From contig NZ_CP006681.1 in the NCBI RefSeq assembly GCF_000565175.1, positions 1,054,001 through 1,118,000 on the forward strand: a stretch of DNA of 64,000 nucleotides. The letters run 5' to 3'. Below, in pieces: positions 58,983 through 59,469 of this stretch. Below the pieces are notes generated by a model, which was not told where the DNA came from, made no database searches, and was given only the letters and a program-made list of their open reading frames with translations. Position 1 is the first letter of the stretch. Every line of letters begins with the position of its first letter. This stretch comes from Spiroplasma culicicola AES-1. Lineage in GTDB: Bacteria; Bacillota_I; Bacilli_A; Mycoplasmatales; Mycoplasmataceae. Position numbers and translations under genes: made by a program.

Positions 58983-59010
58983 TTGTTTTTTAAATAATTA
59001 GTGTTATTAT
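58983..59010 (+). promoter_or_regulatory. Promoter of the metallothionein-like gene
   Basis: TTGTTT (58983-58988), 16-bp spacer, TATTAT (59005-59010), whose -10 overlaps the first operator palindrome. Confidence 0.5.
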
Positions 59011-59037
59011 CTATATAGATAGTTATCTATATAGATA
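59008..59037 (+). promoter_or_regulatory. Duplicated palindromic operator (probable ArsR/SmtB site)
   Basis: TATCTATATAGATA, a perfect 14-bp palindrome, occurs twice (59008-59021 and 59024-59037), 16 bp centre to centre, between the -10 box and the RBS of the Cys-rich peptide gene. Length and AT-rich dyad fit ArsR/SmtB-family operators. Confidence 0.75.
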
Positions 59038-59061
59038 AAGATCTAAAAGGAGGAAATCAAT

Positions 59062-59127
59062 ATGATTTATATTACAGATGGATGTACATGCCAAAATTGC
59101 ACATGTGAAAATTGCGATTGTAAATAA
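59062..59127 (+). CDS. 21-aa cysteine-rich metallothionein-like peptide
   Basis: Reads MIYITDGCTCQNCTCENCDC plus a final Lys. Six of the last 14 residues are Cys, in CxC-x2-CxC-x2-CxC form, a typical soft-metal thiolate arrangement. Strong RBS AAGGAGG 9 nt before the ATG, its own promoter with two palindromic operators, and a terminator shared with the convergent ArsR-type gene. Far shorter than cyanobacterial SmtA (about 56 aa). Function as a metal chelator or metal-delivery peptide is inferred. Confidence 0.78.
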   Translation: MIYITDGCTCQNCTCENCDCK

Positions 59128-59128
59128 T

Positions 59129-59163
59129 AAAAAGAGTTAGATATTTTTAATCTAACTCTTTTT
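59129..59163. terminator. Bidirectional terminator between Cys-rich peptide gene and arsR-type gene
   Basis: Arms AAAAAGAGTTAGAT/ATCTAACTCTTTTT (14 bp, perfect) with a 7-nt loop. The stop codon of the ArsR-type gene is inside the second arm. Confidence 0.92.
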
Positions 59164-59469
59164 ATTACAATTGTCACAATTATATGGTTTTGAACGAACT
59201 ACTTTAAAGAACTCTTCTAATTCTTTAAAACCCTTTTCATTTATTGAATAGAATTTTGAATTTTTATTCTTTGTTGATGTAATTAATCCTACTTCTTCAA
59301 GTAATTTTAAATGATAGCTTAAGGTTGGTTGAGTAATATTTAATTCAACCAGTATATTTTGGGCACATTTATCACATTCACAACCACAAATTCTATTTAG
59401 AATTTTTAATCTTGTTGGATCACTAAGAACTTTAAATATTTGTGCATATTCTTTAAAATTTGTTTCCAT
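59152..59469 (-). CDS. ArsR/SmtB-family metal-responsive repressor
   Basis: 105 aa winged helix. The recognition helix region (LNITQPTLSYHLKLLEEVGL, 42-61) matches ArsR family. The Cys-rich stretch ICGCECDKC (C28, C30, C32, C35) occupies the alpha-3N metal-sensing position (compare ELCVCDL), and a second pair is at the C-terminus (NCDNC, C98 and C101). This points to a soft metal such as Cd, Pb, Zn, Cu or As(III). Likely regulates the convergent Cys-rich peptide gene through the palindromes at 59008-59037. Promoter with TATAAT and RBS GGGAG. Confidence 0.9.
   Translation of the reverse strand: METNFKEYAQIFKVLSDPTRLKILNRICGCECDKCAQNILVELNITQPTLSYHLKLLEEVGLITSTKNKNSKFYSINEKGFKELEEFFKVVRSKPYNCDNCNKKS

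Follow-up and report, generated by a model that had tools for sequence, protein, structure and literature searches.

The window analysed here, a stretch of 64,000 nucleotides from Spiroplasma culicicola AES-1 (whose genome, a single contig of 1,175,131 bases, reads TGA as Trp), in all likelihood contains a metal-regulated micro-metallothionein unit, in which a gene for a Cys-rich peptide and a gene for an ArsR-family repressor converge. The best explanation of this arrangement is probably a two-gene metal-stress unit that would most likely respond to Cu(I) and stand in for copper efflux. The features involved are the following.

59005-59010, + strand: -10-like hexamer (TATTAT) in the promoter of the peptide gene, from sequence, overlapping the first palindrome
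59007-59038, no strand: predicted operator, a perfect 15-2-15 inverted repeat TTATCTATATAGATA-GT-TATCTATATAGATAA, near-invariant in ten genomes
59010-59035, no strand: perfect 12-2-12 core TCTATATAGATA-GT-TATCTATATAGA, the classical SmtB/ArsR operator form
59048-59053, + strand: Shine-Dalgarno AGGAGG, from sequence
59062-59127, + strand: metallothionein-like peptide ORF, 66 bp, 21 aa, MIYITDGCTCQNCTCENCDCK
59125-59167, no strand: inverted repeat with an 18-bp stem between the convergent genes (18-nt arms, 100% complementary, 7-nt loop)
59152-59469, - strand: ArsR/SmtB-family repressor, 105 aa, convergent with the peptide gene

The peptide gene and its conservation

The original prediction of a 66-bp gene that encodes a 21-aa peptide with three CxC pairs is borne out by the sequence. 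The six Cys of MIYITDGCTCQNCTCENCDCK (C8, 10, 13, 15, 18 and 20, that is, 29% or 6/21 residues) form three CxC pairs joined by CxxC, the single Tyr lies outside the Cys region, and His is lacking; the peptide is thus small, Cys-rich, built of CxC and CxxC and poor in aromatic residues, the combination by which metallothioneins are recognised in sequence. Translation of the ORF under genetic codes 4 and 11 yields the identical product. With the limited power that so short a query allows, we found no matching family in Pfam or NCBIfam (E<=1), no matching chain in the PDB (E<=10) and no curated-family match to the known bacterial metallothionein families (SmtA/BmtA, MymT); the literature searched yielded no paper on metallothioneins of Spiroplasma or Mollicutes and, in response to a broad query on short bacterial metallothioneins, nothing usable.

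Conservation was assessed in 60 genomes of the family, 20 of the same genus among them, at one genome per species and under the genus and family labels given by the search tool (one of the ArsR queries was a hand-made consensus that served for searching only). Ten of the 20 same-genus genomes, counting the present one, encode an orthologue of the repressor, as do three genomes (G004, G057 and G059) that belong to two other genera. At each of the ten same-genus loci a convergent short CxC ORF adjoins arsR, and peptide, operator and arsR always occur together; the grouping goes beyond chance, since it recurs in nine further genomes of the genus. The loci of these nine relatives have flanking genes in common, and the window locus has the same unit among other neighbours. 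In the nine relatives (L002-L010), a putative lipoprotein gene is divergent from arsR (e.g. L007:1921-2694, + strand); several of these lipoproteins bear CxxC (GADxCxHC) and are possibly thioredoxin-like, and none is encoded beside the window unit. A profile search for the peptide across the order gave one match per genome at the ten loci, and the ten congeneric genomes without the unit gave none. A contig scan with the ArsR query returned distant ArsRs only, and carriage on plasmids was considered and rejected, the nearest plasmid ArsRs being general ArsRs of <60% identity.

Aligned, the ten peptides share the core CxCxxCTCxxCxC, in which none of the six Cys varies, nor does the T of CTC (10/10 loci), so that the search of relatives for conserved Cys spacing that accompanied the original prediction has come out in its favour. 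The peptides range from 21 to 28 aa with 6-8 Cys, their length changes by whole codons, and AGGAGG lies 4-8 nt 5' of the ATG at every same-genus locus (10/10). When all pairs of the ten cores are compared (the pairs are not independent), codons for Cys and Thr differ 0 times at position 1, 0 times at position 2 and 70 times at position 3, and the remaining core codons 111, 97 and 115 times, respectively. The restriction of the Cys/Thr differences to third positions points to selection on the Cys of the peptide; the codon-position pattern is what selection on a protein would leave, and a chance ORF was rejected on this ground.

The second palindrome of the promoter (window 59017-59044) becomes a 28-bp palindrome in most relatives, and the mRNA may begin with it; ahead of the L009 peptide it shows a compensatory A-T to G-C change, and in L003 the pairing is kept through G-U only. 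Because this palindrome could form a 5' mRNA hairpin, and given the one compensatory change in L009, one might argue that the locus is not a protein gene and represents a regulatory RNA or a chance ORF. We regard this as having a close to negligible probability: the relatives' palindrome folds, but its covariation is weak (matched by 44/500 shuffles), the copy in the window genome is imperfect, with a hairpin z of -0.85, and the third-position bias of the Cys/Thr codons, the whole-codon length changes and the consensus Shine-Dalgarno sequence at every locus all speak for a protein.

The repressor and the predicted operator

The convergent gene, predicted to be of the ArsR/SmtB type, indeed encodes a protein that scores above the cut-offs of both Pfam HTH_5 (E 9e-11, 41.9 bits, cut-off 22) and NCBIfam HTH_metalloreg (68.6 bits, cut-off 55). 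Its Cys, namely C28, C30, C32 and C35 plus the C-terminal C98xxC101, make up an arrangement of an alpha-2/alpha-3 loop cluster and a C-terminal CxxC. Thus, the anticipated C-terminal Cys are present, but the anticipated alpha-3N site is not: sites of this kind (CadC/AztR type) combine an alpha-3 Cys pair with one or two N-terminal Cys (PMC8790569), and the repressor has no Cys before residue 28. The alpha-5 site of the SmtB/CzrA type (DxHx10HxxE in the last helix) is absent as well, and the only His of the repressor sits in the recognition helix. C35 is kept in 13/13 orthologues, and C28, C30, C32, C98 and C101 are shared by the ten peptide-linked ArsRs but missing from the three orthologues of other genera. 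The smtAB-like layout with a smaller peptide that had been proposed gains both from the Cys spacing conserved at the ten same-genus loci and from these extra repressor Cys, which occur only where the peptide adjoins; as far as sequence can tell, the functional part of this reading is supported.

In the AF2 model of the repressor (mean pLDDT 85, low at the C-terminus), C28-C32 lie in a loop of residues 25-33, and C35 starts the helix preceding the recognition helix. The closest solved fold is that of the As(III) ArsR 6j05 (Z 12.1, rmsd 2.2, 88 aligned); CzrA 1r1u, CadC 1u2w and SmtB 1r22 give Z 10.0, 9.5 and 9.1, respectively. The fact that the As(III)-responsive ArsRs 6j0e/6j05 are closest in solved sequence and fold, along with the several redox-sensing ArsR relatives in the fold list, would suit a sensor of arsenite or of general thiol/redox stress, with the peptide acting as a thiol-rich scavenger and not as a metallothionein. 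Such a role appears highly improbable, however, given that the neighbourhoods of the unit and its relatives show neither an As(III) pump nor an arsenate reductase, that the linkage is to a Cu-type ATPase, and that the fixed CxC/CxxC spacing, typical of metal clusters, would be unnecessary for scavenging.

At the peptide promoter, the two predicted 14-bp palindromes are both exact (TATCTATATAGATA at 59008-59021 and 59024-59037); across the whole window at <=2 mismatches, where 0.92 matches are expected by chance, there is one other, with 2 mismatches. Each arm of the 15-2-15 repeat contains one of these palindromes, and what had been called a duplicated operator, although real as regards the palindromes, is better described as one 15-2-15 inverted repeat with a 12-2-12 core. 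SmtB/ArsR sites are described as having the form of a 12-2-12 inverted repeat (PMC8790569), and the one found here lies at the target promoter, with 11-12 of 12 arm positions matching at all ten loci. TATTAT is kept at 10/10 loci, and we infer that transcription of the peptide gene starts near 59017. An exact search for the 15-bp TTATCTATATAGATA found it at the peptide locus and nowhere else in the ten unit-bearing genomes, and not at all in the genus's other ten; a wider operator regulon in the genus was considered and rejected, only scattered one-mismatch matches to this sequence being found. In the genus, the own promoter of arsR has no 12-2-12 site, so that, in sequence terms, the repressor does not control its own gene through the operator. 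The inverted repeat between the two genes is likely a bidirectional terminator.

A weight matrix derived from the ten 12-2-12 sites and scored against 3000 dinucleotide shuffles detects related elements in the three genomes from outside the genus: in G004, at -56 of a gene for a CopA-like ATPase with arsR 3' of it (0/3000 shuffles); in G057, at -56 of arsR (1/3000); and in G059, as a moderate match, at -55 of arsR (14/3000), where a Cys-rich short ORF follows (MEVNKFMCNCNCKCNDCTCASNGTSCK or its internal start). Nothing comparable was found in 20 other copA upstream regions or upstream of six other micro-peptides.

We propose the following mechanism. Without metal, a dimer of the ArsR-family repressor would occupy the 12-2-12 operator over the -10 element and the start and keep the peptide promoter off. 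Binding of a thiophilic metal, Cu(I) being the likeliest, to C28, C30, C32 and C35 and perhaps to the C-terminal CxxC too would make the repressor leave the operator; the derepressed gene would then give rise to the 21-aa peptide, the six Cys of which (CxCxxCxCxxCxC), judging by their pattern, would enclose the metal in a small metal-thiolate cluster and thereby sequester it. One could instead envisage the peptide as a metal chaperone or buffer that passes the metal to another protein and is no detoxifying store, in line with its very small size and with the divergent putative CxxC lipoprotein that adjoins arsR in nine relatives. This we consider improbable because no partner is kept across both lineages that carry the unit, the lipoprotein being missing beside the window unit, and because control by a repressor fits a response to excess metal.

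Copper-type pumps and the choice of metal

Every genome of the genus encodes three or four P-type ATPases. With a CopA-like query, a P1B pump was found in seven same-genus genomes (E 1e-70 or better) and not in thirteen, absence of a pump or a peptide meaning no match at the stated E-values. The pumps bear CPC, YN and SSxxVxxNSL-like motifs and pass the heavy-metal P1B model in every case (7/7), and their best metal-specific model is that for Cu, with 2/7 above the NCBIfam Cu cut-off and 5/7 below it. A CopA-type ATPase is thus present in 0/10 genomes with the unit versus 7/10 without it (Fisher p=0.003, ignoring relatedness). Family-wide, the pump, in some cases degraded, is found in 0/13 micro-peptide genomes (the ten unit-bearing ones plus G007, G050 and G059) versus 23/47 others (Fisher p 0.0009, a value that likewise ignores relatedness). 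Three genomes of the genus, G031, G032 and G037, have neither the peptide unit nor the pump. In the EF-G locus tree, the nine relatives form one clade (support 100) to which the pump-bearing G045 is sister (96), and the window genome groups with the pump-bearing G028 and G030 (96); the unit being found in two separate lineages, there would have been about two CopA-exclusion events.

The original prediction named Cd, Zn, Cu and As(III) for its proposed gel shift, and the comparative evidence favours copper over Zn/Cd. The operator ahead of copA-arsR in G004 and the CopA reciprocity make copper the best-supported metal, and we lean towards it as the main one. Because Cu-sensing ArsRs are rare, one would by default expect Zn/Cd sensing, and both the metallothionein and the sensor of the same unit might serve Zn(II)/Cd(II) (or Pb), like cyanobacterial smtAB: the well-studied pairs of metallothionein and ArsR, SmtB/SmtA and AzuR/NmtA, are Zn/Cd systems, and the fold model of the repressor resembles CzrA, CadC and SmtB. 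We nevertheless find this rather unlikely for a repressor that lacks the alpha-5 DxHx10HxxE and whose single His belongs to the recognition helix, and for a peptide devoid of His, the more so as the operator and orthologue in G004 accompany a CopA-like ATPase and the presence of the unit and that of CopA are reciprocal. Under the copper reading, the ancestral repressor/operator pair may have governed a CopA-type pump, as it would in G004; in the two CopA-less lineages the pair would control the peptide alone, and sequestration therefore appears to have replaced efflux.

Further CxCxxCxC peptides, of 22-37 aa, are encoded at L063:1501+, L065:1566-, L068:1581-, L069:1474+, L074:1560- and L077:1560-; among such short peptides from other mollicutes and Bacilli, MDKNKNKKCSCSNCTCTSCTCNA lies directly 3' of a tRNA-like sequence, and MSNKENKSCSCVSCTCQACTCSNCSCSAKK is another example. 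These further peptides have no operator upstream, and arsR is not among the adjoining ORFs listed. In another Bacilli genome, L080:1402-1821 (- strand) encodes a ferredoxin-like protein whose end is a long metallothionein-like tail, CNCENCTCDDCKC...CHCEHCDCE. The scatter of CxCxxCxCxxC ORFs over mollicutes and other Bacilli suggests that a wider micro-metallothionein group, defined by Cys pattern alone, may exist.

It is possible, if somewhat doubtful, that we are dealing with an undescribed family of micro-metallothioneins (21-28 aa), a second independent lineage of Cu(I)-sensing ArsRs and a switch of a regulon from CopA to a peptide in two CopA-less mollicute lineages. Were this so, genomes of ~1 Mb would answer metal stress with a 66-bp gene and not with a pump gene of roughly 2 kb, in a rare case of one repressor and operator switched from a pump to a sequestering peptide. 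The peptide would be among the smallest known metallothioneins, perhaps, at 21 aa, the shortest that is gene-encoded, and would mark a lower size limit for the genetically encoded kind; short enough to escape annotation, it would also exemplify functional genes hidden by annotation length cut-offs. Chemical synthesis is feasible at 21 aa, which makes metal binding directly testable.

Comparison with known systems

Among metallothioneins, SmtA has about 56 aa, MymT about 53 aa and a Magnaporthe protein 22 aa. The cyanobacterial smtA/smtB and nmtA/azuR (Anabaena) systems resemble the present unit in combining an ArsR-family repressor, one metallothionein-type target and a 12-2-12 site close to the promoter or over it, the form of the site being that given in PMC8790569. 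Unlike smtA/smtB, however, the unit encodes a peptide of 21-28 aa without His and without room for a zinc-finger fold, its genes are convergent, the operator is not ahead of arsR, and there is no alpha-5 site.

The mycobacterial MymT is larger than the unit's peptide and differs in motif and regulator. It is a small metallothionein of bacterial origin and is viewed as a copper one (PMC10612145). In very small size and CxC-built sequence, the peptide resembles the metallothioneins of Neurospora crassa and Agaricus bisporus, definite Cu-thioneins of 26 residues with 7 Cys that were once the shortest known (PMC4755600); the resemblance is one of kind, whereas the present peptide is bacterial, has 6 Cys in 21 aa in the pattern CxCxxCxCxxCxC, and is predicted to be under ArsR control.

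BxmR of Oscillatoria brevis is an ArsR-family repressor that is reported to control a metallothionein (BxmA) and a CPx-type ATPase and to respond to Cu(I)/Ag(I); no other ArsR-family member is said to sense Cu(I) (PMC3817396). Both types of BxmR target, metallothionein and pump, occur among the relatives of our unit, whereas the Cys layout is different and each genome here has one target, pump or peptide, and not both. The unit would work like smtAB and, if the metal is copper, like BxmR.
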